Source of the DNA: Clostridiaceae bacterium
GTDB taxonomy: Bacteria > Bacillota > Clostridia > Saccharofermentanales > Saccharofermentanaceae
Length of the DNA: 64,000 nt
Assembly: GCA_012729635.1 (NCBI GenBank)
Contig: JAAYCT010000030.1
Span: forward strand, 1-64,000
Direction: 5' to 3'
Below are positions 243 to 47,085 of the stretch, piece by piece; position 1 is the first letter of the stretch, and each line of letters starts with the position of its first letter. The position numbers and the translations under genes were made by a program. A model generated the notes under the pieces. It was not told the DNA's origin. It saw nothing but the letters and a program-made list of their open reading frames with translations, and did not search any database.

Positions 243-1154
243 ATGAGTTTGGGAGAAAATATTCAGTTTTACAGAAATAAGGCCGGCATTACACAGGAGC
301 AATTCGCGGAGCGTTTGGATGTTTCGCGGCAGTCCGTTTCGAAATGGGAGTCCAACACGACCTACCCGGAGATGGACAAACTCCTTCAGATGTGCGGGAT
401 GTTTTCGTGCTCGCTCGATACGCTCCTCAGGGGCGACGCGGAAAGCGTCAGTTTCGAGGATACCGGGAAATACGATCAGCACATGAACGGATTCGCAAGG
501 GCGATCACCGTCGGGATCGCGCTTCTGTTTTTAGGCGTCGCGGTTCTGCTCATGCTCCTCGGGTTCGAGGTGTCGGTACCGCTTTCGGTCGTGGCGATGC
601 TGGCCTTCGTGGTCTCGGCGATCATGACGATGACATACGCCGGGCTGGGACACGACGCGTATATGAGAAAGCACCCGCAAGTTAAGCCGTTTTATTCCGG
701 GGAAGACATCGAAGCCGCCGATCGAAAATTCCGCCTGCAGATCACGTTAGGGATCGGACTTCTGTTCCTCGGCGTTCTTTGGCTCGTCGGAAGCTTCGCG
801 CTTCCGATCCCCGTCGATATAGGACGGCAGGTGTATGTGGCGATCGCGATCCTGATCTTCGGGATCGCCGTTGCGATCATGTCCTATTCCGGAATGCAGA
901 AGGACAAGTACGACATCGACAAATATAATCAGAGCAACACGCCCGAGGCGCGTCAGGCAGAGAAGGAAAACGATGAGAACTCGCCGGTCGGGAAATGGTG
1001 CGGCGCGGTTTTCATGATCGCGATTGCCGTGTTTCTGGTCCTCGGACTGGGCTGGCAGATGTGGCATCCCGGATGGATCGCTTTTCCGGCGGCGATATTC
1101 CTGTGTGCGGTCGGGGCGATCGTCGGCGGGAAACAGGGGAAGAAGGCCGATTAG
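243..1154 (+). CDS. XRE-family DNA-binding protein with membrane domain
   Basis: The N-terminal ~60 residues are a Cro/CI-type helix-turn-helix (ITQEQFAERLDVSRQSVSKWE). The rest holds about five to six hydrophobic segments in two similar DUF-like blocks, each a pair of helices followed by an acidic linker, and a final pair near the C-terminus. Such proteins are membrane-tethered regulators common in Clostridia; the signal sensed is unknown. ATG 243 is preferred over ATG 237 because GAGG at 231-234 is 8 nt away, but AGGGA at 225 could serve 237. A promoter with a palindromic operator lies just upstream, and a strong hairpin terminator follows. Confidence 0.85.
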   Translation: MSLGENIQFYRNKAGITQEQFAERLDVSRQSVSKWESNTTYPEMDKLLQMCGMFSCSLDTLLRGDAESVSFEDTGKYDQHMNGFARAITVGIALLFLGVAVLLMLLGFEVSVPLSVVAMLAFVVSAIMTMTYAGLGHDAYMRKHPQVKPFYSGEDIEAADRKFRLQITLGIGLLFLGVLWLVGSFALPIPVDIGRQVYVAIAILIFGIAVAIMSYSGMQKDKYDIDKYNQSNTPEARQAEKENDENSPVGKWCGAVFMIAIAVFLVLGLGWQMWHPGWIAFPAAIFLCAVGAIVGGKQGKKAD

Positions 1155-1210
1155 AGATTTTTTCGCGAAAAGCGCCGGCATTGCGGAGCGGACTTGGCAT
1201 CAACAAAGAA

Positions 1211-1260
1211 GGGGCTGTCTCAAAAGACTTGTAAGAAAGTCAAATGAGGCAGCCTTTTTC
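1211..1260 (+). terminator. Hairpin terminator, copy 1 of a dispersed repeat
   Basis: GGCTGTCTCA (1213-1222) pairs with TGAGGCAGCC (1245-1254) with one G-U pair. An AAA/AAA internal loop follows, then an inner GACTT/AAGTC stem, and TTTTT comes directly after. A near-identical element occurs at 52264-52318. It should terminate the XRE gene. Confidence 0.8.
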
Positions 1261-1642
1261 TATCCAAACAGACGGCTGTCGGAAATGCAAATAAAATATC
1301 CTTCCGCCCGCCTACATTCGGGAGAACCATCCGCACTGCTCCATATTGGCTGAGTGCCCCTTCCGCCGACTCGAAAAGTGCTGCTAATCCGACGCGGACC
1401 GACAAACGATTTCTTGAAGCCCTGAAAGCGCTGGAATCTAAGACGGTCGACGGACAAATCGTCGTGGAGCGCGTGATGAAATTTCCGTCATGTGCATATG
1501 AACCCCGTTCCATTTTTTGCTGTGCACAGTTATGATTAAGAAAGAAAACACAGAATTCGGACCCGATCTCTTCGTCACATTTTGGATCGGCCGAAAAATA
1601 CAATAAGCATTACGAACCGGAACGGTCGGAAAGGGGCTTATC
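1261..1642. other. Intergenic stretch without recognisable gene
   Basis: About 380 bp between the terminator and the next gene. Short frames exist on both strands, but none has a ribosome site or a recognisable product. TGAAAGCGCT near 1422 resembles half of a catabolite-control (cre) site, but the second half does not match. A weak GGGG ribosome site precedes the next gene at 1634. Confidence 0.5.
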
Positions 1643-2365
1643 ATGGCAGAGGATGTTAAGATGAATGAAGAACCAAAAGTGATCGACGAGGGGGAGAACA
1701 TCGAACCGGCCCTTGAGGGTTCGATACCCGAAGCGGATGCCGCTCAACAAGCCGTTTTGCAACAAGAGCCCGTTGACACGCAAGTGCAGACTCCGGCACA
1801 GTTGCCGGAGGAAGAGATTGCCGGGACGGTAACAGAGATCAAAAAGCCGGAGGCCAAGCCCGCGGTTCCGGAAGTCACCCTTTCGCCGGAGCAGGCGAAG
1901 GCGCTTCAACAGGAGAAAATGATCGCCATTGAGTCCATCAAGAAGATCCTGGATAAGGCGCGTGTCGCATTTTTGACTACAGTCAGCGGAAAACAACTGC
2001 TCTCCCGTCCGATGTACATGCAGAAGAGGGAGTTTGACGGGACGCTTTGGTTTTTCGCCAAAAGCGACAGCCCGAAGGTCGAGGATATTCGCCGGGACTC
2101 TCGCGTCAATGTGCTTTTCACCGAAAAGGAATTCGTATCCCTTTCCGGAAGGGCGGAAATCGTCGAGAATGATCTGAAAAAGAAAATGTATTGGGGCAAG
2201 ATGCTCGAAAAGTATTTTGAGACCGGTTACAACGATCCGAATATCGTTCTGATCAAGATCGAGGCTTTGTCGGCGCAACTGTGGGAAAAGCCAGGATCCC
2301 TTGATTCGCTCCTGAACCGGGTGGATCCGATGTCGGAGAGCGACGGGGTTACCGTGGATTTTTGA
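1643..2365 (+). CDS. Pyridoxamine 5'-phosphate oxidase-fold protein
   Basis: The first ~90 of 240 residues are low-complexity and rich in Glu, Pro, Gln and Ala, with no hydrophobic segment. Residues ~95-225 form a split-barrel FMN-binding fold of the general-stress-protein-26 type: an opening KILDKARVAFLTT strand, RPMYMQKREFDGTLWFF, DSRVNVLF, and a C-terminal VLIKIEALSAQLWE strand. Family members bind FMN or related cofactors and are linked to stress responses; the substrate is not predictable. The acidic proline-rich N-terminus is unusual for the family and may be a flexible tether. Confidence 0.85.
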   Translation: MAEDVKMNEEPKVIDEGENIEPALEGSIPEADAAQQAVLQQEPVDTQVQTPAQLPEEEIAGTVTEIKKPEAKPAVPEVTLSPEQAKALQQEKMIAIESIKKILDKARVAFLTTVSGKQLLSRPMYMQKREFDGTLWFFAKSDSPKVEDIRRDSRVNVLFTEKEFVSLSGRAEIVENDLKKKMYWGKMLEKYFETGYNDPNIVLIKIEALSAQLWEKPGSLDSLLNRVDPMSESDGVTVDF

Positions 2366-2418
2366 TGATTTTTCGCCCGAAAATCGGCGTTGCGAGCTCA
2401 AAACAGAGTGGCCGCCGA

Positions 2419-2448
2419 TTGTTCCGGTTGCCGGTAATGCGTTATAAT
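2419..2448 (+). promoter_or_regulatory. Promoter of zinc transporter gene
   Basis: TTGTTC (2419-2424), an 18-bp spacer, then a consensus TATAAT (2443-2448). It lies 31 bp before the GTG start of the transporter. Confidence 0.6.
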
Positions 2449-2479
2449 CCGAAGCAGAGTACACCTTCGGGAGGACATC

Positions 2480-3328
2480 GTGAATAATGTTTGGTTTGCG
2501 TTCGGTCTGACTTTATTTGCCGGCTTGAGCACGGGCGTCGGAAGTATCCTTGCCTTTTTCACGAAGAAAAGCAATACGAAGTTCCTGTCGATCAGTCTCG
2601 GATTCTCGGCGGGCGTAATGATCTATGTTTCGATGGTTGAGATCTTCTTCAAGGCGCGGGGCAGTCTGATCGAGGAACTCGGTACCGTTCGGGGATCGTG
2701 GATCACGGTCGTCGCGTTTTTCGGCGGCATGCTCCTGATCGGGGTGATCGATCAATTGGTTCCGTCCTCGGAGAACCCCCATGAGCTTCACTCGATCGAG
2801 GAAATGAACGAGAAGCATCCGGAGGAAGGTCACCACGCCGTTCAGATCAAAATGCGTGAAGAGGCGAAGAAGAATCATAAGCTTCTCCGAATGGGTCTTT
2901 TTACCGCTCTGGCGTTGGCGATCCACAATTTTCCCGAAGGTCTTGCGACCTTCATTGCCGCTTTACACGAGCCGGAAATCGCGATCCCGATCGCTGTCGC
3001 AATCGGGATCCACAATGTTCCGGAGGGCATTGCCGTTTCCGTGCCGATTTATTTCGCGACCGGGAGCCGGAAAAAGGCCTTTTTCTATTCCTTCCTGTCC
3101 GGTTTGGCCGAGCCGGTCGGCGCGCTCGTCGGCTACCTGATCCTGATGCCGTTCATGAGCGATGCGCTGATGGGCGTCGTTTTCGCGATGGTTGCCGGTA
3201 TTATGGTTTTTATTTCGCTGGATGAACTGCTTCCTTCCGCCCGGGAATACGGAGAACACCATCTTTCGATTTACGGGATGGTCGGCGGGATGGTATTGAT
3301 GGCAATCAGCCTGCTCCTGTTTTTATAG
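2480..3328 (+). CDS. zupT: ZIP-family zinc/metal transporter (ZupT-like)
   Basis: A 282-residue polytopic membrane protein with about eight helices. The two metal-site helices are clear: HNFPEGLATFIAAL and HNVPEGIAVSVPIYFATG, the HNxPEG signatures of ZupT-type ZIP carriers, with a third E in SGLAEPVGA. A His/Glu-rich cytoplasmic loop (around residues 95-125) lies between helices 3 and 4, as usual in this family. It would import Zn2+ and other divalent metals. The start is GTG, with GGGAGG 5 nt before it. It stands alone behind its own promoter; the gene downstream is convergent. Confidence 0.92.
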   Translation: MNNVWFAFGLTLFAGLSTGVGSILAFFTKKSNTKFLSISLGFSAGVMIYVSMVEIFFKARGSLIEELGTVRGSWITVVAFFGGMLLIGVIDQLVPSSENPHELHSIEEMNEKHPEEGHHAVQIKMREEAKKNHKLLRMGLFTALALAIHNFPEGLATFIAALHEPEIAIPIAVAIGIHNVPEGIAVSVPIYFATGSRKKAFFYSFLSGLAEPVGALVGYLILMPFMSDALMGVVFAMVAGIMVFISLDELLPSAREYGEHHLSIYGMVGGMVLMAISLLLFL

Positions 3329-3351
3329 AGAATTCGGTTGATCGGCAGTAT

Positions 3352-4713
3352 TCATGGCTCTTCGGAGATTGATTCGTCGTATTGGATTACCGATTGGATT
3401 ACCGGATATGGATTGTTGAGCATCCCGATTGGGCAGAAGAAATAATCGGTGCCCGTGTCGGAAAGATAATGGAACGGTGTGAGCATGTAAACGAGCTCCT
3501 CGGAATCACCGGATGTGTAAAAATCGATTACGTTTACCTTGTTTCCGATGACCTGAACCGTCATGGAGATTACTTCCGTGTCGGAGGCTGATGTGCCGAA
3601 GGAAATTGTAACAAACCAAGGGTCTTGGAATGCCGAAGAAGAGGAGCCGTCAAGCTCCGGGAACGATTCGTCGAATCGATAGGGGCTTCCGACCGAATAG
3701 GAGGTTATCCTTATTCCTTGATCGGAAAGCGCCTGAAGTTTTTCGACATATTCATTGCGCAATTGATTGTGATAATTTAACGCGCCGATTGCGCGCACCT
3801 TTTCCGTCCGCTCACGGGCTTCCCGGTGCAAACGGGTATTTTCGAAAATCAGAATATCGAACATCGTTTGGGGAATCAGTTCCGATTGATTCATCCAATC
3901 CGGTTGGTTATTGAGTCGCCCCCCGACGGTCGGACGATAATAACGATTGCCGTCCTCTGCCGCAAACCGGATGTAGGTCAGCGAGCTGTCCGGAATTTCG
4001 CTCATAATGTCAACGACAAGAATGTCGTCGGTGAGTAGGGGTTGCGCAAGCCGAACCGCTTCGTCAAAAACCTCCTCGGGAATCGGAGTGAATCGTTCCG
4101 TGCCGGTCGAATTCATGACAATGATTTGAGCCCAGAAATCGGCGGGTGCAAGGTCGTCCGGAATGGCTTGAATTTTTTCGTTTCCGGCGAGCGTATAGTA
4201 TTCAACTCCATCTATGATTACTTTTATATAATCCCATCGGCTGATCGACGACCCGAACGAATCCTGAATGAGCGACTCGTAAATCCAATCGGTTTCAAAA
4301 TATTCGAAGGCCGCGGCGAAATCGCCTTCGCTCAGACTTTTAGCGAAATCGTTGACCAAACGAACGTCTTCTGCATTTGAAAAGGAGAGGCTCTCGCCTT
4401 TTGAATCGTTATAAGCGATTTTGATAAGGACGGCAATCGACAGGATCAACAGTACGCAGAGGATGGATATGATCCATCTGCGGCGGATTTTTTTCATTCC
4501 TTTTGCGAGCGTTATTTCCCGTTCGATTTCTTCCGTTTCCTCCGGTTCGTCGGATGACTCGGTCAGTACGAGCGGCCCGCTCATTGCTGCCAGTGATTTA
4601 GCGCACGATTCACAGTTTGCGATGTGTTCGTCGACTTTTGTTTTCGTTATTTCCGAGCAATCGCCCGCTGCGTAAACCGGCAGCAAATCCCGAATAATCT
4701 CACAATGAATCAT
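3352..4713 (-). CDS. zf-HC2 membrane protein, anti-sigma-like
   Basis: The N-terminal ~50 residues form an anti-sigma zinc finger (HC2) with the H-x3-C-x2-C core HIANCESC. One transmembrane helix (around WIISILCVLLILSIAVLI) follows, then a ~340-residue outer domain with no family I recognise. Such proteins usually hold an ECF sigma factor at the membrane, but no sigma gene is adjacent; the upstream neighbour is divergent. ATG 4713 and ATG 4716 are both served by GGGAGAAGG; 4713 has better spacing. The longer reading frame back to 4797 lacks a ribosome site. A Cys is present near the N-terminus of the finger (MIHCEII). Confidence 0.8.
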   Translation of the reverse strand: MIHCEIIRDLLPVYAAGDCSEITKTKVDEHIANCESCAKSLAAMSGPLVLTESSDEPEETEEIEREITLAKGMKKIRRRWIISILCVLLILSIAVLIKIAYNDSKGESLSFSNAEDVRLVNDFAKSLSEGDFAAAFEYFETDWIYESLIQDSFGSSISRWDYIKVIIDGVEYYTLAGNEKIQAIPDDLAPADFWAQIIVMNSTGTERFTPIPEEVFDEAVRLAQPLLTDDILVVDIMSEIPDSSLTYIRFAAEDGNRYYRPTVGGRLNNQPDWMNQSELIPQTMFDILIFENTRLHREARERTEKVRAIGALNYHNQLRNEYVEKLQALSDQGIRITSYSVGSPYRFDESFPELDGSSSSAFQDPWFVTISFGTSASDTEVISMTVQVIGNKVNVIDFYTSGDSEELVYMLTPFHYLSDTGTDYFFCPIGMLNNPYPVIQSVIQYDESISEEP

Positions 4714-4752
4714 CATCCTTCTCCCGTCGATTTCGGAGTTTTTCTTTACTCT

Positions 4753-4777
4753 GAAAAAAGCCGATTTCCCCCGGCTT
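4753..4777 (-). terminator. Possible leader terminator (attenuator) before zf-HC2 gene
   Basis: On the minus strand AAGCCG (4777-4772) pairs with CGGCTT (4763-4758) and runs into TTTTTT. No gene ends here on that strand, so it would act inside the 5' leader of the zf-HC2 gene. The stem is only 6 bp. Confidence 0.4.
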
Positions 4778-4823
4778 CCTTTATTCACACCGCTCAATGA
4801 TTGGATTCATGAAAAGGTGAAAG

Positions 4824-4842
4824 GTTACACTCGAATTGTAAC
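4824..4842. promoter_or_regulatory. Inverted repeat in divergent upstream region
   Basis: GTTACA (4824-4829), 7 bp, TGTAAC (4837-4842), located between the divergent zf-HC2 and Dabb genes. It could be a regulator site for either. On the minus strand the TGTAACCTTT it contains resembles the -35 of some ECF promoters, but no matching -10 is seen. Confidence 0.4.
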
Positions 4843-4938
4843 AGATCGGAGCACCCGTTTGAATAAGGGTTTCGAACTGAATATTGACCGAAGGGATACA
4901 CACGGCTATGATGACAGAAAACCGGGGAGGAAATAGCG

Positions 4939-5241
4939 ATGGTGGTTCATATTGTCATGTGGACGTTAAAGGATTTCGCGGAAGGCCGCACCAAGGAAGA
5001 AAACGCGGTTCTTTTGCAGAAAAGGTTGGAGGAACTCAAGAATTCTATCCCGGAAATCAAGCATATCGAGGCCGGCCGTAATTTCAACAACTCGCCGGCT
5101 GCGTACGATGTGGTTCTTTACTCCGAATTTTCCGATAAAGAGGGGTTGGCCGCGTATCAGATTCATCCGGAGCATCAAAAGGTTGCGGCGCTCGTCGGAG
5201 CGGTTACCGAAAGCAGAGCGGTAACGGATTACGAGCGTTGA
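4939..5241 (+). CDS. Dabb-family (stress-responsive A/B barrel) protein
   Basis: A 100-residue protein starting MVVHIVMWTLKD, with the Dabb hallmark pattern: an N-terminal HIV(M/L)WxxK strand, a helix, AYDVVLYSEFSD, and an HPEHQKV motif near residue 75. Family members are small dimeric ferredoxin-like barrels of mostly unknown function, some acting in polyketide or stress pathways. GGGGAGG ends 8 nt before the ATG. No operon partner: both neighbours are divergent or convergent. Confidence 0.9.
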   Translation: MVVHIVMWTLKDFAEGRTKEENAVLLQKRLEELKNSIPEIKHIEAGRNFNNSPAAYDVVLYSEFSDKEGLAAYQIHPEHQKVAALVGAVTESRAVTDYER

Positions 5242-5312: not shown

Positions 5313-5792
5313 TCAGTCTTTTCTGAATAGTGCGTCGACCGATGTGTCGGTGTTGACTTCAACCGTAATCGTCGGATCGGTGCTTTCCAGTATAACGCCC
5401 CATTGAGTTCCGTCTGTGACCTGCCAAACCTGCCAGGAATCGAAAACATATCCCTCGGCCGCTTCCTGAAAGAATGTGACCGGGGTCCCGGCCGCAATCA
5501 TGCCGTCGTCCGCATACGGCTCAAAGGAGACATGCCCTCCGCCCTCGGTTCCCAAATTATCGAGCGGTCGGCCATGAACGGAAACGCAACAGAAAACCTG
5601 TTGTGCTGTTGTTGTGGCGGCCGTATCCGTCACGGAAACGGTCGTTTCTTCTTCCATCGGGGGGACATAGTCCTCCAGATCCCCGGCGATTTTTTTCGCC
5701 GCTTCCTGTGCTTCCTCGGGTGTGCATCCGGCAATCAAAACGGAAAAGGAAAAGATGAAGACAAACAAAAACGAGAGGATGCGTTTGGACAT
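5313..5792 (-). CDS. Lipoprotein with InlB-B-repeat-like C-terminal domain
   Basis: 159 residues. A short basic start and a hydrophobic stretch end in the lipobox LIAGC, so it should be lipid-anchored outside the cell. A helical, Glu-rich linker and a Thr-rich stretch (to ~65) follow. The C-terminal ~85 residues have the pattern GGxVSFEPYADDGMIxAGTPVTFxxxxxxGYVFDSW ending in TVEVNTDTSVDALF, the form of bacterial surface beta-repeats found in adhesins. An AAAGGAGG ribosome site precedes it. Ligand unknown. Confidence 0.75.
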   Translation of the reverse strand: MSKRILSFLFVFIFSFSVLIAGCTPEEAQEAAKKIAGDLEDYVPPMEEETTVSVTDTAATTTAQQVFCCVSVHGRPLDNLGTEGGGHVSFEPYADDGMIAAGTPVTFFQEAAEGYVFDSWQVWQVTDGTQWGVILESTDPTITVEVNTDTSVDALFRKD

Positions 5793-6025
5793 AATTTGCC
5801 TCCTTTATCTGTTTTCCGATGGTTCGAGGCATCGGGGTCGGACTAAAAGTGACACCGGCGCCGCATATCAAAAACTGTCTGTTTCCATTATATCTTTCGG
5901 CAACATACAATTCCATATTTTGGGGCTTGAAGCTTCCTTTGTGAAAACGGTTTTTTGTCATGGATTCTTCCTTTCGGATTATAATAAACGGGGAACGGTT
6001 ATTTTTTAGGAAAGGCAAACACATC

Positions 6026-7507
6026 ATGTCGGTCATCAGCGTCCACCATCTGACCTTCTCCTATGACGGGAGCTACGGTAATATTTTTGACAATGTCAGT
6101 TTCCAGATCGACAGCGACTGGAAGCTCGGCTTCATCGGTCGAAACGGGCGGGGCAAGACGACGTTTCTGCGACTTCTGCTCGGCGATTTCGCGTATGCCG
6201 GAAGCATCCGGGCGACCGAAAAATTCGAGTATTTTCCGTACGAGGTCCCGGATATGAGTCGACGGACTTTTGATGTGATGACGGATATTTGCCCGGAGTG
6301 TATGGAGTGGGAGATCAAACGGGAGATCGCTTTGCTTGACGTCTCCGAGGAGGCATTGGGACGGCCGTTCGAGACGCTTTCCGAGGGGGAGCGGACGAAG
6401 ATCCTTCTCGCCGCGTTGTTTTTGGCGTCGCATCGATTCCTTCTTCTGGATGAACCGACCAATCACCTCGACATTGACGCGCGAAAATCGGTTACTGCCT
6501 ACCTGGCTTCCAAGAAAGGATTTATCCTGGTTTCCCACGACCGCGACCTCCTCGACGCCTGCGTCGATCATATCCTCTCGATCAACAAGACGGATATTGA
6601 GGTGCAGAAGGGCAACTTCAGCTCCTGGTGGGCCAATAAGAATAATCGCGACGATTTCGAGCGGGACGAGAACAGAAAGCTCAAACGCGAGATCGATCGT
6701 CTCGGTGAATCAGCCCGGAGAAACGTCTCGTGGGCGGAAGCGGTCGAAAAGAGCAAGTATAAGCCCAACAAGGATGGCGACAGGCCCTTAGACAAGGGAT
6801 TCATCGGACACATGTCGGCCAAGGCGATGAAGCGCGCCAAGAGCATTGCTGCAAGGCAGGAGGCCGCCGCGGAAGAAAAATCCAAGCTTTTGCACAACAT
6901 CGAACGAAGTGATGACATCAAGATATCCCCGGTTGACTTTCACAGAGAACGAATGGTCGATGCGTCACACTTGTCGCTTTTCTACGGGGATCGAAAAGTG
7001 GTCGACGGCATTTCTTTTTCCGTGCGTTCCGGGGATCGGATCGCGATTGCCGGAAGAAACGGGAGCGGAAAATCGAGCATTCTGAAGTTGATTTGCGGGC
7101 AGAACATTACCCATGAGGGCTCCTTCAAGGTCGAAAGCGGGCTTGTGATCTCTTTTTTGCCGCAGGACACGTCGCATCTTCGGGGCAGTATGGACGATTT
7201 CGTGCCTCGATTCGGTCCGGACGGTGCTCTTTTTCGGGCGATACTCAATAAACTCGATTTCTCGCAGGATGATTTTGACAAAAATCTCGAGGAATTGAGC
7301 GGCGGACAGAAGAAAAAAATCCTCATTGCCCGAAGCCTTTGCGAAAAAGCTCACCTGTACGTGTGGGACGAGCCGCTGAATTTTATCGACGTCTTTTCGA
7401 GAATCCAGATCGAAAAAATGATCCTTACGTACCGGCCGACATTGCTTTTCGTCGAGCACGACGAGGCGTTTCGCAGAAATATCGCGACCCGGACCATCGA
7501 AGTGTAG
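6026..7507 (+). CDS. ABC-F ribosomal protection protein, Lsa/Vga type
   Basis: 493 residues with two ABC ATPase domains and no membrane segments. Domain 1: Walker A GRNGRGKT, signature LSEGERTK, Walker B LLLDEPTNHLD. Domain 2: GRNGSGKS, LSGGQKKK, VWDEPLNFID. A charged linker between them (about residues 195-300) would be the antibiotic-resistance loop region. The opening ISVHHLTFSYDG and WKLGFIGRNGRGKT closely resemble Lsa-type proteins, which bind the ribosomal exit site and displace lincosamides, streptogramin A and pleuromutilins. Spectrum cannot be read from sequence. ATG 6026 is set by AGGAAAGG 10 nt upstream; the longer frame from 5960 has no ribosome site. Confidence 0.9.
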   Translation: MSVISVHHLTFSYDGSYGNIFDNVSFQIDSDWKLGFIGRNGRGKTTFLRLLLGDFAYAGSIRATEKFEYFPYEVPDMSRRTFDVMTDICPECMEWEIKREIALLDVSEEALGRPFETLSEGERTKILLAALFLASHRFLLLDEPTNHLDIDARKSVTAYLASKKGFILVSHDRDLLDACVDHILSINKTDIEVQKGNFSSWWANKNNRDDFERDENRKLKREIDRLGESARRNVSWAEAVEKSKYKPNKDGDRPLDKGFIGHMSAKAMKRAKSIAARQEAAAEEKSKLLHNIERSDDIKISPVDFHRERMVDASHLSLFYGDRKVVDGISFSVRSGDRIAIAGRNGSGKSSILKLICGQNITHEGSFKVESGLVISFLPQDTSHLRGSMDDFVPRFGPDGALFRAILNKLDFSQDDFDKNLEELSGGQKKKILIARSLCEKAHLYVWDEPLNFIDVFSRIQIEKMILTYRPTLLFVEHDEAFRRNIATRTIEV

Positions 7508-23624: not shown

Positions 23625-23766
23625 GGCGTCGAATATCGCACTTATCGCGATTTTTTCGAATCAGCCCGGTCAGCATACAATAATGTTGCGCGGTTCGGCA
23701 AATTCCGATAAAGTGACTATTGAGCGTTGATTCCGACGCCGTAAAAGAGTGAAAGGCGGACCGACG

Positions 23767-24369
23767 GTGGAGTTTTCCATTCTGTATTTTCTTCAGGACA
23801 TGAACCATCCGTTTCTCGATCCGATTATGATTGGGGTCAGCACCCTGGGCAACAGCGGAATGATTTGGATTGTGCTGACCATTTTTATGCTGTTCGTCCG
23901 AAAGTACCGTGAAAGCGCTTTTGCGATGATCATCGCGCTTCTTCTTTCGCTTTTGATTTGTAATTTGGCGCTGAAAAATATCGTTCAACGCGATCGTCCG
24001 TTTTGGATAGATCCGACGGTGATTTTAAAAATCGATGAGCCGTCCGAATTTTCATTTCCGTCCGGTCACACGTTTTCCTCGTTTGCGGCGGCCGTAACAT
24101 TGTATCTGTTCCATCGGAAAATTGGATTTGCGGCGATTGTTCTGGCGATCATGATCGCTTTTTCCCGTCTGTATCTGTTCGTTCATTTTCCGACCGATGT
24201 TTTGGCATCCGTCGTACTCGGTTCCGTAACCGCGGTCATCGCGGTCCGGACGGTGCAAAAATATATCCGCCCCGTCATTCTAAAAGCGGGATTCATCCCC
24301 GTTTCCGTCGAGGTGACCACAGAAGGAGAGAATTATGAAATCCGAAATGACGAAACTGACCGAAAATGA
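23767..24369 (+). CDS. PAP2-family membrane phosphatase
   Basis: 200 residues with about five to six helices and the three phosphatase motifs: KNIVQRDRP, PSGHT and SRLYLFVHFPTDV. Such enzymes dephosphorylate lipid phosphates, for example undecaprenyl pyrophosphate or phosphatidylglycerol phosphate, on the membrane. GTG 23767 with AGGCGGA 6 nt upstream is chosen; GTG 23749 is possible. Its 3' end overlaps the next gene by 35 nt, so the two are translationally linked. Confidence 0.88.
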   Translation: MEFSILYFLQDMNHPFLDPIMIGVSTLGNSGMIWIVLTIFMLFVRKYRESAFAMIIALLLSLLICNLALKNIVQRDRPFWIDPTVILKIDEPSEFSFPSGHTFSSFAAAVTLYLFHRKIGFAAIVLAIMIAFSRLYLFVHFPTDVLASVVLGSVTAVIAVRTVQKYIRPVILKAGFIPVSVEVTTEGENYEIRNDETDRK

Positions 24370-24724: not shown

Positions 24725-24854
24725 AGTAGCTCTGACCCCGGTGATCCTTTATGAAAATCAACGAGAAAAGCGGATGAATTGACGGTATCGGATTCTCGCA
24801 TTTTCGGATACAATCATATCGTAGGTATCGTTGTGTCCTAACCTTCTTTCGGTC

Positions 24855-24906: not shown

Positions 24907-25692
24907 ATGAAGGAAATCACACTGCCCGGTCTTCGTCGCTTCAATATGATTATGGGTGCGCTTCATCTGATTCAGGGAATCGTAATGCTGATTCTTGCCG
25001 GAAGCGTCATTCAGAAAATTGCGGAATTTTCACCGGTCATCACACAGAATTATCTGACGTTTAACCCTGCGACGCAATCGCTCGAACCCGCTTTCCGGGA
25101 ACTGTTCTCGCTACCGTTCGGCGTGATGGTCGCATCTTTCCTTTTCATTTCGGCAATCGCACACGCATTGATATCCGTGCCCCAAAAACTCAATGAGGTC
25201 TATAATAACGATCTGACGAAACGGATCAACCGTTTCCGTTGGTTTGAGTATGCGCTGAGCTCGTCGGTTATGATTGTTCTGATCGCGACTTTGTTCGGAA
25301 TCTATGACATCGCTTCGCTGACATTGATCTTTCTTGCAAATGCAGCCATGAATCTGTTCGGACTGGTAATGGAACAGATGAATTCCGAAAGAAATACGGT
25401 ATGCTGGGGTCCGTTTGTTTGGGGTTCGATCGTGGGAATCGCCCCGTGGGTCGCCATTCTGATGTATATGTTCGGTTCCGGAAATTTCGATAAAGTACCG
25501 TGGTTCGTATGGGCGATCGTCGGCGCGTATTTTGTCGCATTTAACACCTTTCCGATCAACATGATCCTACAATACAAACGAGTCGGGAAATGGAATAACT
25601 ACCTTTACGGAGAGCGTGTATACATCGTGCTGAGCCTTGTTGCCAAAACGATTCTGGCATGGTTGGTGCTTTTCGGAGCGATGCAGCCGTAA
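24907..25692 (+). CDS. Heliorhodopsin (retinal-binding photoreceptor)
   Basis: 261 residues, seven helices, no signal peptide. It carries the heliorhodopsin hallmarks: LRRFNMIMGALHLIQGIVML in helix A, RWFEYALSSSVMIVLIA in helix C with Glu114 at the counterion position, and GERVYIVLSLVAKTILAW in helix G with Lys247 as the retinal Schiff-base lysine. Heliorhodopsins are inverted relative to type-1 rhodopsins, do not pump protons and are found in monoderm microbes. Their signalling role is still unsettled. GGAGG is 8 nt before the ATG. No retinal-synthesis gene is present in the window. A DUF1508 protein with its own promoter follows. Identification rests on motif recall, but the Glu, Lys and surrounding residues fit well. 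Confidence 0.92.
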   Translation: MKEITLPGLRRFNMIMGALHLIQGIVMLILAGSVIQKIAEFSPVITQNYLTFNPATQSLEPAFRELFSLPFGVMVASFLFISAIAHALISVPQKLNEVYNNDLTKRINRFRWFEYALSSSVMIVLIATLFGIYDIASLTLIFLANAAMNLFGLVMEQMNSERNTVCWGPFVWGSIVGIAPWVAILMYMFGSGNFDKVPWFVWAIVGAYFVAFNTFPINMILQYKRVGKWNNYLYGERVYIVLSLVAKTILAWLVLFGAMQP

Positions 25693-43342: not shown

Positions 43343-44644
43343 TTACAAATTGGCGGTAATGCCCGTAAACAAGATTGTTCCGTCGGTGGTATCACAAATC
43401 GCGAACAGGAACGGTCGATCTGCATTAAATACAATCGTCTGCTCCGGATCATCGTTCGGGGCCGCTTTTATGTCCATCACCACCGCGGTGGCCGCCGCAG
43501 CTTCCGCACCCTCCTCATTCACGCGAATATATGTTTTGTGCATGATTTCCGAAACATAAAGATCATTTTTGTTGCTTTCCAGCATGTTTGCAAATTGCGC
43601 ATTCATCGTAAAAGCTTCGTTCATTCCGAGCGCCTGCATGGTTTGAATCATAGAGGATTGAAATTCAAATTCAAATTTCGGAAGACTGATGATCACCTCT
43701 TTTTCGGATGCACTTGAAAGCAGGGATTCGATTCCGGTCTCGGAGATTTCTTCCGATACATCCTCGGGTGCGTATCCCTTTTTCGGAAGGATGAAGGTCA
43801 TGGCGTACGGGCCGGTCTCTCCCTCGTCTCCGCGGAACGGAAGGAGGATGAGTTGGAACGTATTTCCCTCCGTGTAACGTACAGTCCACCGAGCATGCAT
43901 GAAAGGAACCGTCGTATCTCCGTTGCTTCCGTGGAAGACTTCGTCAAAGGTTTGATCCTTGTCAAAGCTCGTTTCCCATTCGCCCAGAAAATAGAGGGCG
44001 TTTATCAAGACCAAACGAGTCAAGGAAGACACGTCATTTTTCAGAATTTCCGGGATTTTCCCGTGCGTCTTATGATTTACCCAGGCGTTCATCAATTCTT
44101 CCGCGCCGGAAGGATCATCTACAAAGTCGACATTGTACAGATCCGCCATGAAATTCTCGTTGCAGTGGCTTACGTATTCTTTTGCAAAATTGTAATCGTC
44201 CTGAAGCCACAAGGAATTGGATGTTTCCATGCCGTTTCGGTTCGCACGCCACATCAGTTGAGCAACCGAAGAAAGAATCTCCTCTTCGGAAATGCCGGAC
44301 ATCCGAAGCGCGGACATCATTTCATCCCGGGTGTTGCCTTCGGCGCCGATCGCGGTCATCAACAGAGCCAGCTGTAAACTGGCGGGAGAGATCGCGATGT
44401 TCTCCCCGTCGTACATCTTAAGAAGCACGTCGAAACCGTAACGGTTTAATCCCGAAACAAACTCGCTCGAAAACGGAGTCAGTTTTTTGGGCGTGAGGGC
44501 GGCTTCAAATGTTATGATATTACTGTCAATCCCCTGAAAAGGATTGTCCTTCTCTTTGACGCGAATATCTGAGCATCCACCCAAAGAAAACAGTAGGGTT
44601 GTCGATAGAATCACAGATAACAGTCGTTTGGTCAGTCTTTTCAT
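43343..44644 (-). CDS. Lipoprotein serpin 1 (protease inhibitor)
   Basis: 433 residues. The signal peptide ends in SLGGC (lipobox). The serpin fold (about 60-433) shows NRYGFDVLLKMYDGENIAISPASLQLALLMTAIGAEGNT, the NALYFLGEWE shutter strand, and the C-terminal FNADRPFLFAICDTTDGTILFTG. The reactive loop has the inhibitory hinge EEGAEAAAATA. Counting from hinge Glu as P17 puts P1 at the Lys of MDIKAAP, so trypsin-like proteases are likely targets. A second serpin gene lies just upstream in the same direction (44 nt apart). AAGGA is 8 nt before ATG 44644. Confidence 0.92.
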   Translation of the reverse strand: MKRLTKRLLSVILSTTLLFSLGGCSDIRVKEKDNPFQGIDSNIITFEAALTPKKLTPFSSEFVSGLNRYGFDVLLKMYDGENIAISPASLQLALLMTAIGAEGNTRDEMMSALRMSGISEEEILSSVAQLMWRANRNGMETSNSLWLQDDYNFAKEYVSHCNENFMADLYNVDFVDDPSGAEELMNAWVNHKTHGKIPEILKNDVSSLTRLVLINALYFLGEWETSFDKDQTFDEVFHGSNGDTTVPFMHARWTVRYTEGNTFQLILLPFRGDEGETGPYAMTFILPKKGYAPEDVSEEISETGIESLLSSASEKEVIISLPKFEFEFQSSMIQTMQALGMNEAFTMNAQFANMLESNKNDLYVSEIMHKTYIRVNEEGAEAAAATAVVMDIKAAPNDDPEQTIVFNADRPFLFAICDTTDGTILFTGITANL

Positions 44645-44688
44645 TGTTGTATCCTTCTTTCGTTGTTTTCGGGTTTGTTCCAATCGGT

Positions 44689-45987
44689 TTAGTCGATCGT
44701 TGCGGTAATCCCGGTAAACAGGATCGTTCCGTCCGTGGTGTCAAAAATCGAGAAAAGAAACGGACTGTCGGCGTTAAAGATCACGGGCTGCTCCGGATCA
44801 ATCGGCATTGCCGTCTCTGCCATGATTACGGTGGTAATCGCCGCGGCCTCCGCACCTTCCTCATCGATCCGTACATAGGTCTTGTGGAGGATATCGGAAA
44901 TGAAAAGCCCGTTCGGTCCGTCGGTCATCTTGTCAAAACGGGCACTATCATTAAATGCGTCTTCCATTCCGAGGCGTTTCATCGTCTCCACCATGGATGT
45001 TTCGTATTCAAACTCGAATTTCGGAAGGCTGATCCGGACCAACGTATCCCGAGCGTTCGCAATTGCGTCGGCAAAATCACTTTCGGACAATTCCCGGGCT
45101 ACGTCTTCCGGGGTATTTTTGTTTTTCGGAAGCATAAAGGACATCGCAAACGGACCCGTCATTCCGTCGTCGCCGAGAAACGGAAGGATAATCATTTGGT
45201 AGGTCTCACCCTCCATGTAAAGCACCGTCTGCTCTGCGTGCATAAACGGTATCGTCGATTCGCCGACGGCTCCGAAAAAGGTATCGTCATAGGTATTATT
45301 GGCTTCAAAAGGAGTAACCCAATCTCCGAGAAAATACAGGGCGTTCGCCAAGACCAGCCGGGTGGAGGAATCAAGCGGCTGGTTGAGGATTTTCGGTATT
45401 TTGCCGTGCGTTTTCTCGTCGCCCCAGTCGTTAATCCGTTTTGTACTGTCGACCGGTTCGTTGATATAGTCGAGCGTATAAATATCGGCCATAAAATCGG
45501 TCGTACAGATGTCCAAAAATGCATCGGCGAATCCGTAGTCCTTCTGCGGGAAAAGAGCGTTGGCCGCCTCCATTCCGTTGGTGTTTACGCGCCACATCAA
45601 CTGACCGACGAAGGAACGAATCTCTTCGTCGGACATTTCACTCATCTGAAGAGCGGTCATCATTTCTTCCTTCGTGTTGCCGGTCGCACCCATGGAAGTC
45701 ATCAGCATGGCGAGCTCCAGACTGGCGGGAGAAACGGAGATGCTTTGCTCTTCGTAAAGATCCAAGAGGACCTGAAAGCCGAATCGGTTCATCCCGGAAG
45801 TAAACTCCGTCGAAAAGGGCTCGATCTCTCTGGGCGACAAAACGGCCTCGTATGACTCCAGTTTGGTGATCGAGTTTTCGTCCGGTTCGGAGTCGTTTCG
45901 GAAGGATATTTCCAAGCATCCGGAAAGCGAAATGCAAATCGACGCGACGAGCGCGTACGTAACCAGTATTGAAAACCTTTTTTTCAT
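44689..45987 (-). CDS. Lipoprotein serpin 2 (protease inhibitor)
   Basis: 432 residues, paralogous to serpin 1 along its length. The lipobox is LSGC. Serpin blocks include NRFGFQVLLDLYEEQSISVSPASLELAMLMTSMGATGNT, ANALYFLGDW and FNADSPFLFSIFDTTDGTILFTG. The hinge reads EEGAEAAAITT, still inhibitory in form. P1 by the same counting is the Thr of AETAMP, with neighbouring Ala, so an elastase- or subtilisin-like target is likely. AAAGGAG is 9 nt before ATG 45987. First gene of the serpin pair; the frame upstream to 46296 is not used. Confidence 0.92.
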   Translation of the reverse strand: MKKRFSILVTYALVASICISLSGCLEISFRNDSEPDENSITKLESYEAVLSPREIEPFSTEFTSGMNRFGFQVLLDLYEEQSISVSPASLELAMLMTSMGATGNTKEEMMTALQMSEMSDEEIRSFVGQLMWRVNTNGMEAANALFPQKDYGFADAFLDICTTDFMADIYTLDYINEPVDSTKRINDWGDEKTHGKIPKILNQPLDSSTRLVLANALYFLGDWVTPFEANNTYDDTFFGAVGESTIPFMHAEQTVLYMEGETYQMIILPFLGDDGMTGPFAMSFMLPKNKNTPEDVARELSESDFADAIANARDTLVRISLPKFEFEYETSMVETMKRLGMEDAFNDSARFDKMTDGPNGLFISDILHKTYVRIDEEGAEAAAITTVIMAETAMPIDPEQPVIFNADSPFLFSIFDTTDGTILFTGITATID

Positions 45988-46221
45988 ATGTTGCTCCTTT
46001 CGGATTGAAAACAATCCACTCGCCTTTTCGGCTCTACACATCAGACGAGCAACGATCAAGAATTGTTGCGTCTCTTTTAGAAAATTCCGAGCGCATTGAC
46101 TTCGCTTTTCCTGTAGAATATCATTTTTACATGAGAGATAGTATGATGGGGGAGTAAACAAGACACATTCTACATCGGAAGTTTTGCGCTTTGACGTGAG
46201 AAGGAGAAGGGGGGGTGAAGG

Positions 46222-47085
46222 ATGAAGATTCTGGTTATCGGCGGAACGCGCTATTTCGGCAAGCACTTGGTTCGGGAACTGTTGGATCAAGGCCATGAGG
46301 TTACCATCGCGACGAGGGGTTTAACTCCGGATGTTTTCGGAAATGAAGTCGAGCGAATACGTTTCAATCGAACGGATCGTGAAAGTGTACGGTCGGAATT
46401 ATCGGGACGAGAATTCGACGTGGCATACGATAACATCAATTATTCGCCGTATGATACGGAGAGCATACTGGAGTGCATTCAAACCCAAAGATATATTTTT
46501 ACCTCCTCCTCCGCGGTATATCGCGGAGGACGCAACCTTTCGGAAAAGGATTTCGATCCGTATCACTACCTGATCCGCATGGGTCGGAGAACGGATTTTG
46601 ATTACGCAGAAGGGAAGCGCTTGTGCGAGAGCGTGCTGTTCCAAAATTATAAGATCGATGCTTGCGCGGTTCGATTCCCGATTGTCATCGGGAAGGATGA
46701 CTACACGAGAAGATTGTATTCCTATGTCGAGCATATTGCTCGGGGCGAGAAAATGAATATCGATAATGCGGATGCGCGCTTTTCGATGATCGAGTCTTTG
46801 CAAGCCGGGGCCTTTCTGGCGTATCTGGCAGACCGAAAGGATACCGGACCGATGAACGCAGCAGCACGTGGGCACATCAGCGTTGCTCAGATTGTTAAAC
46901 GGATTGAAGAGATTCTTGACCGCAAAGCGATTCTGGGCTCAAACGGAATTCCGGGGGAATTTAACGGTTATCCCCATAACACTCTTTCGACCGAAAAAGC
47001 CGAGGCAACGAATTTCTGCTTCGCCGAATTGGATCCGACAATCCGCGACCTTCTAAAAACATACGCAATCGATTTTGTCGAGTAA
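46222..47085 (+). CDS. NAD-dependent epimerase/dehydratase family protein
   Basis: 287 residues of the extended SDR family. The N-terminal ILVIGGTRYFGKHLVRELLDQGHEV is the Rossmann nucleotide site. FTSSSAVYRGGRN holds the Ser, but the usual Y-x3-K is replaced by FDYAEGKRLCE (Y-x3-K is visible as YAEGK). The substrate is likely a sugar nucleotide, but close relatives act as RNA-binding proteins. An AAGGAGAAGGGGGGG stretch precedes the ATG. Divergent from the serpin pair. Confidence 0.85.
   Translation: MKILVIGGTRYFGKHLVRELLDQGHEVTIATRGLTPDVFGNEVERIRFNRTDRESVRSELSGREFDVAYDNINYSPYDTESILECIQTQRYIFTSSSAVYRGGRNLSEKDFDPYHYLIRMGRRTDFDYAEGKRLCESVLFQNYKIDACAVRFPIVIGKDDYTRRLYSYVEHIARGEKMNIDNADARFSMIESLQAGAFLAYLADRKDTGPMNAAARGHISVAQIVKRIEEILDRKAILGSNGIPGEFNGYPHNTLSTEKAEATNFCFAELDPTIRDLLKTYAIDFVE

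Follow-up and report, generated by a model that had tools for sequence, protein, structure and literature searches.

A heliorhodopsin gene under strong purifying selection in an anaerobic clostridial genome without detectable retinal synthesis genes, and a phage-borne relative

Heliorhodopsins are known from strictly anaerobic Firmicutes, and forms fused to an N-terminal MORN or zinc-finger domain have been described (PMC8612252). Heliorhodopsins have also been reported in microbes without retinal synthesis (PMC9296517). Described members of the family include TaHeR, from a Thermoplasmatales archaeon (PDB 6is6, 7u55), TfHeR of Trichococcus, which is paired with a photolyase (PMC9769723), and the proton-transporting V2HeR3 of Emiliania huxleyi virus 202, whose transport hallmarks are E191 (the gate residue) and W195 (PMC9448325). 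Clostridial and retinal-auxotrophic heliorhodopsins are thus already known, and the gene described here is a further member of a known family. It lies in a 64,000-nt stretch of DNA, the whole of which was analysed and is referred to as the window.

The initial annotation of the window, made from the sequence, had placed a heliorhodopsin gene at 24907-25692, and its coordinates, strand and length are correct. The open reading frame starts with ATG and has a GGAGGA ribosome-binding site upstream; no comparable protein is read from the opposite strand of 24907-25692. The gene and its signals are as follows:

24809-24814, + strand: TACAAT, probable -10 element of the heliorhodopsin gene's own promoter, inferred from conservation with the congener locus L002
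24894-24899, + strand: GGAGGA ribosome-binding site, read from the sequence and kept in L002
24907-25692, + strand: heliorhodopsin gene (261 aa), identified by PF18761, PDB matches by sequence and fold, and a structure model
25246-25248, + strand: codon of Glu114, Schiff-base counterion (E108 of TaHeR), invariant in 41 sequences
25645-25647, + strand: codon of Lys247, retinal Schiff-base lysine (K238 of TaHeR), invariant in 41 sequences

A profile search places the open reading frame in the heliorhodopsin family. Pfam PF18761 matches residues 9-259 with an E value of 2.1e-98 and 328.9 bits against a curated cut-off of 26.7, and the profile is covered over its full length (1-242 of 242). In a sequence search, the heliorhodopsins in the PDB match the protein with E values of 5e-56 to 2e-47. 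An AlphaFold2 model, for which 41 homologues were the input, has a pLDDT of 91.9 and a pTM of 0.88; it displays the seven helices that had been claimed, all of them long and transmembrane, together with both beta-strands of extracellular loop 1. When the model was used in a Foldseek search, the best ten matches were all heliorhodopsins, with TM-scores by query of 0.83-0.90, and type-1 rhodopsins gave far weaker matches. The open reading frame is a true heliorhodopsin. With 261 aa it has no extension, and a fused N-terminal domain of the MORN or zinc-finger type is absent. In the predicted topology, K/R number 9 in cytoplasmic versus 3 in extracellular segments, and the charge rule would favour a cytoplasmic N-terminus.

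The assignment of Glu114 as counterion and of Lys247 as Schiff-base lysine is borne out by alignment with TaHeR, and Glu114 is the single Glu counterion in helix 3. Ser243 and Lys247 form the SxxxK motif of helix 7, which is invariant across the 41 sequences. In all, H20, H86, E114, E236, S243 and K247 are unvarying in the alignment.

The window comes from contig C29 of the host genome, which measures 2.15 Mb and has a completeness of 96.65% and a contamination of 2.37%. The closest relative of the heliorhodopsin, with 89% aa identity, is found in a congener, the MAG Clostridiaceae bacterium AS10tlH2TH_129 (locus L002), whose name we take to belong to a biogas-reactor set. The congener, which has the same gene order, is classed in Clostridiaceae, class Clostridia, in line with the Clostridia-like host first proposed. 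The window also encodes two GH3 proteins and a further protein that contains a GH120 insertion domain, sugar-polymer enzymes that agree with the fermentative, fibre-degrading habit proposed for the host. Two genes for serpins (serine protease inhibitors) lie side by side on the - strand at 43346-46296. A mis-binned contig was considered and rejected, as the gene order recurs in the congener, whose assembly was made separately.

The order of genes shared by the window and L002 is GH120-domain protein, RND, TetR, PAP2, thioesterase, heliorhodopsin, DUF1508 and PAS/GGDEF/HD-GYP. The immediate neighbours in the window are:

23749-24369, + strand: PAP2 phosphatase (PF01569), kept in L002
24335-24724, + strand: hotdog thioesterase of the 4HBT type (PF03061), kept in L002
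25801-25806, + strand: TATAAT, probable -10 element of a separate DUF1508 promoter, within GTTATAATATA, conserved with L002
25839-26210, + strand: DUF1508 (YegP-like) gene (PF07411), 84% identity in L002
26421-28913, + strand: PAS-GGDEF-HD-GYP c-di-GMP signalling protein (Pfam), kept in L002

Between the window and L002 the heliorhodopsin genes have a dN of 0.069, a dS of 1.9 and a dN/dS of 0.036, a rough estimate with dS near saturation. This is the lowest value among the neighbourhood genes that yielded a ratio, all of these values being rough: at high dS, PAP2 (61% identity) has a dN/dS of 0.20 and the GGDEF protein (64% identity) one of 0.06. The heliorhodopsin is under strong purifying selection, and its GC content is similar to that of the window.

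Upstream of the heliorhodopsin gene a block, TACAATCA...CGTAGG, is kept in L002, and the rest of the intergenic region is divergent. A second block, GTTATAATATA, is likewise kept upstream of the DUF1508 gene despite a diverged intergenic region. A consensus promoter scan of the window picked neither. These conserved blocks probably represent two separate promoters, and thus the heliorhodopsin gene is probably transcribed alone. An operon with the thioesterase or DUF1508 gene was rejected on the gaps of about 180 and 146 bases, and for DUF1508 also on the separate conserved promoter-like site of each gene. A DUF1508 gene occurs in 1 of 35 other genomes of the family outside the genus. Outside the genus, both it and the heliorhodopsin are all but missing from the family, and their histories may be similar. 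No window neighbours are common to the clade loci outside the genus, with the exception of generic signalling proteins.

Heliorhodopsins above the cut-off were found in 12 of 188 genomes of the window's order. Within the family they were seen only in the window's genus (2 of 3 genomes, the third being 78% complete). In the tree, the window and congener sequences fall in a mixed group with Bacillota, Mycoplasmatota and MAGs assigned to Chloroflexota or Actinomycetota; binning errors may lie behind some of these assignments. The heliorhodopsins of several other genomes of the order are clearly different (54-57%), and two genomes of the order carry two copies each (G213, loci L062 and L063; G210, loci L066 and L068). 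Because the gene is patchy within the order, lateral transfer is the natural reading, and repeated loss would also account for the pattern.

A possible vehicle for movement of such genes among anaerobes, and for their patchy distribution, is suggested by relatives borne on a phage and a plasmid. In a scan of viral contigs, a heliorhodopsin gene was found in a 5.8-kb tailed-phage contig, IMGVR_UViG_3300036987_000418 (locus L088). From position 700 to 5179, on one strand, this contig has the genes for an HNH endonuclease, the terminase large subunit, the heliorhodopsin (2387-3175), the portal and a head maturation protease. The phage-borne protein is 78% identical to that of the window and 86% to a copy from G213, with which it groups in the tree at 99/96. 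Its gene is preceded by a TATAAT motif and a ribosome-binding site, and on the 3′ side there is a hairpin followed by a U-run (region at -18.1 kcal/mol, z -2.8). An assembly chimera is unlikely, because both joints fall between genes. Across 69 related phage contigs, the content of the gap from terminase to portal varies and frequently includes other genes, in no case a heliorhodopsin. With a promoter-like motif and a terminator of its own, the gene in L088 appears to be phage cargo, a ‘moron’. A search of 50,697 deposited phage records gave no match to the protein, viral scans that started from other heliorhodopsins brought up no additional case, and a literature search at the title and abstract level revealed no report that joins heliorhodopsin and bacteriophage. 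A second mobile copy (57%) is at 5592-6368 of a 10.5-kb MOBP mobilizable plasmid of Lactococcus petauri (NZ_CP141705.1, locus L090). This plasmid has an IS6 transposase and comes from a catfish isolate.

The absence of visible retinal genes, first noted for the window, holds for the whole genome. A whole-genome search for retinal synthesis and carotenoid oxygenase genes detected no phytoene/squalene synthase (PF00494), no Blh-type dioxygenase (PF15461) and no RPE65-type oxygenase (PF03055), and the phytoene synthase, Blh-type and RPE65-type enzymes were likewise not found in the congener. It should be noted that none of 14 control genomes scored above the PF15461 cut-off, so that this search has no good positive control, and the missing phytoene synthase is the stronger result. 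Among genomes that carry a heliorhodopsin, BCD was above the cut-off in 0 of 38 searched (congener included), with three sub-threshold matches in other carriers, and RPE65 was found in 0 of 44; phytoene/squalene synthase was present in 9 of 44. The formation of retinal by these oxygenases needs O2, and an anaerobe could thus hardly make retinal in any case. External retinal is therefore the likeliest source for a host with no detectable retinal pathway. The question of where the retinal comes from and what it is for had been presented as an open puzzle; in part it was already known, from the heliorhodopsins of anaerobic Firmicutes (PMC8612252) and of retinal auxotrophs (PMC9296517).

A tocopherol-cyclase-like gene (PF14249) is directly downstream of the heliorhodopsin gene at five loci (L021:8849-9823, L023:8846-9805 and L028:3828-4787, which are close kin, L035:8844-9800 and L061:738-1688) and nearby at a sixth (L034:11819-12730). 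By a hand count that is confounded by taxonomy, matches to this family occur in 26 of 43 carriers versus 5 of 37 non-carriers of the window's order. A retinoid-handling partner of this type was rejected for the host, as the gene is absent from its genome and from the congener, and no literature was found that pairs heliorhodopsin with tocopherol cyclase. At another locus (L012:1837-2229) a TspO/MBR gene is about 100 bases upstream of the heliorhodopsin gene on the same strand.

The role of the window protein is probably, in our judgement, that of a standard non-transporting, light-sensing heliorhodopsin that uses scavenged retinal and signals to a partner protein. As a seven-helix membrane protein with a predicted cytoplasmic N-terminus, it would take up retinal from the surroundings and bind it on Lys247. 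Absorption of light would then cause a slow conformational change, and the signal would pass via the cytoplasmic face to the partner. In the anaerobic host the protein would most likely serve to report light exposure; since other organisms make retinal with O2-dependent enzymes, it might also indicate, indirectly, contact with oxic, sunlit material. The PAS-GGDEF-HD-GYP gene, two genes downstream of the heliorhodopsin and kept in the congener, is the leading local guess for the output partner, a weak one. At L014 a protein of the same architecture directly adjoins the heliorhodopsin. By raw count, two-component or c-di-GMP genes are at most a few genes away from the heliorhodopsin in the window and at L007, L014, L020, L024, L025, L031 and L034, which agrees with the enrichment of signalling genes near heliorhodopsins (PMC8612252).

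Other roles should also be considered. The protein could bind a single soluble or membrane protein, encoded elsewhere in the genome, and alter its activity in light. Glutamine synthetase, photolyase and an ABC transporter are the partners reported for other heliorhodopsins (PMC9529153, PMC9769723, PMC11109279), the cytoplasmic loops are positively charged in the predicted topology, and a lone gene is compatible with a distant partner. However, none of ten published partner families (PMC11109279) adjoins the window heliorhodopsin and DNA photolyase is absent from the host genome, and we regard regulation of such an enzyme or transporter as rather unlikely. A light-driven proton channel or pump, as in the coccolithovirus heliorhodopsins, would have the same fold, and E236, the equivalent of E215 of V2HeR3, is present; but the hallmark residues E191 and W195 are replaced by Y208 and F212, with Tyr at 208 in 40 of 41 sequences and Phe at 212 in all 41. 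Transport therefore appears unlikely on these substitutions, and we would give a transporting role very little credence.

A role chiefly as an apo-protein, or as a sensor of retinoids or lipids, independent of light in a dark habitat free of retinal, would be in keeping with the lack of retinal genes in the host and congener and of RPE65 or above-cut-off BCD in the other carriers searched, and with strong purifying selection nonetheless. The Schiff-base lysine and its counterion would be needless for such a role, yet they are invariant, which makes it improbable. Nor is the gene likely to be a recently acquired passenger with no function in the host. Its patchy spread, in the order and within the family, is what a passenger would show, but it is kept in the same gene order in the congener at 89% identity, with the lowest dN/dS of its surroundings and a window-like GC content. 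This reading is strongly disfavoured by the selection result, and we consider it barely credible.

The preferred light-sensing role can be joined to the phage and plasmid observations in a more tentative proposal, by which heliorhodopsin would move as stand-alone cargo of tailed phages and mobilizable plasmids among retinal-less anaerobic monoderms, where it may sense light and oxic contact together. If true, the new host would gain a light sensor that works solely in the presence of retinal supplied by oxic neighbours. Phage carriage is seen in one contig; a phage may have been the source of the gene in the window lineage, and the protein may serve as such a coincidence detector. The phage-borne relative between terminase and portal genes, although outside the window, is the most surprising observation. 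The window itself is a clear example of strong selection on a heliorhodopsin whose anaerobic host has no detectable chromophore synthesis, and this combination, together with the phage-borne relative, is what gives the locus added weight. The setting is simple, with one gene, probably its own promoter and no obvious partner, and makes testable whether the protein holds retinal and from where it is obtained.

Compared with known systems, the window protein shares with V2HeR3 the family, the counterion and the E215 equivalent, but the transport hallmarks are missing (PMC9448325). The likeness to the TfHeR-photolyase pair of Trichococcus (PMC9769723) is that of a Gram-positive heliorhodopsin, whereas the window gene has no photolyase nearby or in its genome. 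TaHeR is archaeal and has Ile199 in place of Tyr208, but the two proteins have a TM-score of about 0.9, 115 identities in 247 aligned residues, and equivalents of E108 and K238. From the heliorhodopsins of anaerobic Bacillota and Mycoplasmatota (PMC8612252) the window case differs in its genus-specific neighbourhood and in a genome without retinal genes; it is like them in sequence (up to 89%), in fold, in all active-site residues and in the lack of a fused domain.
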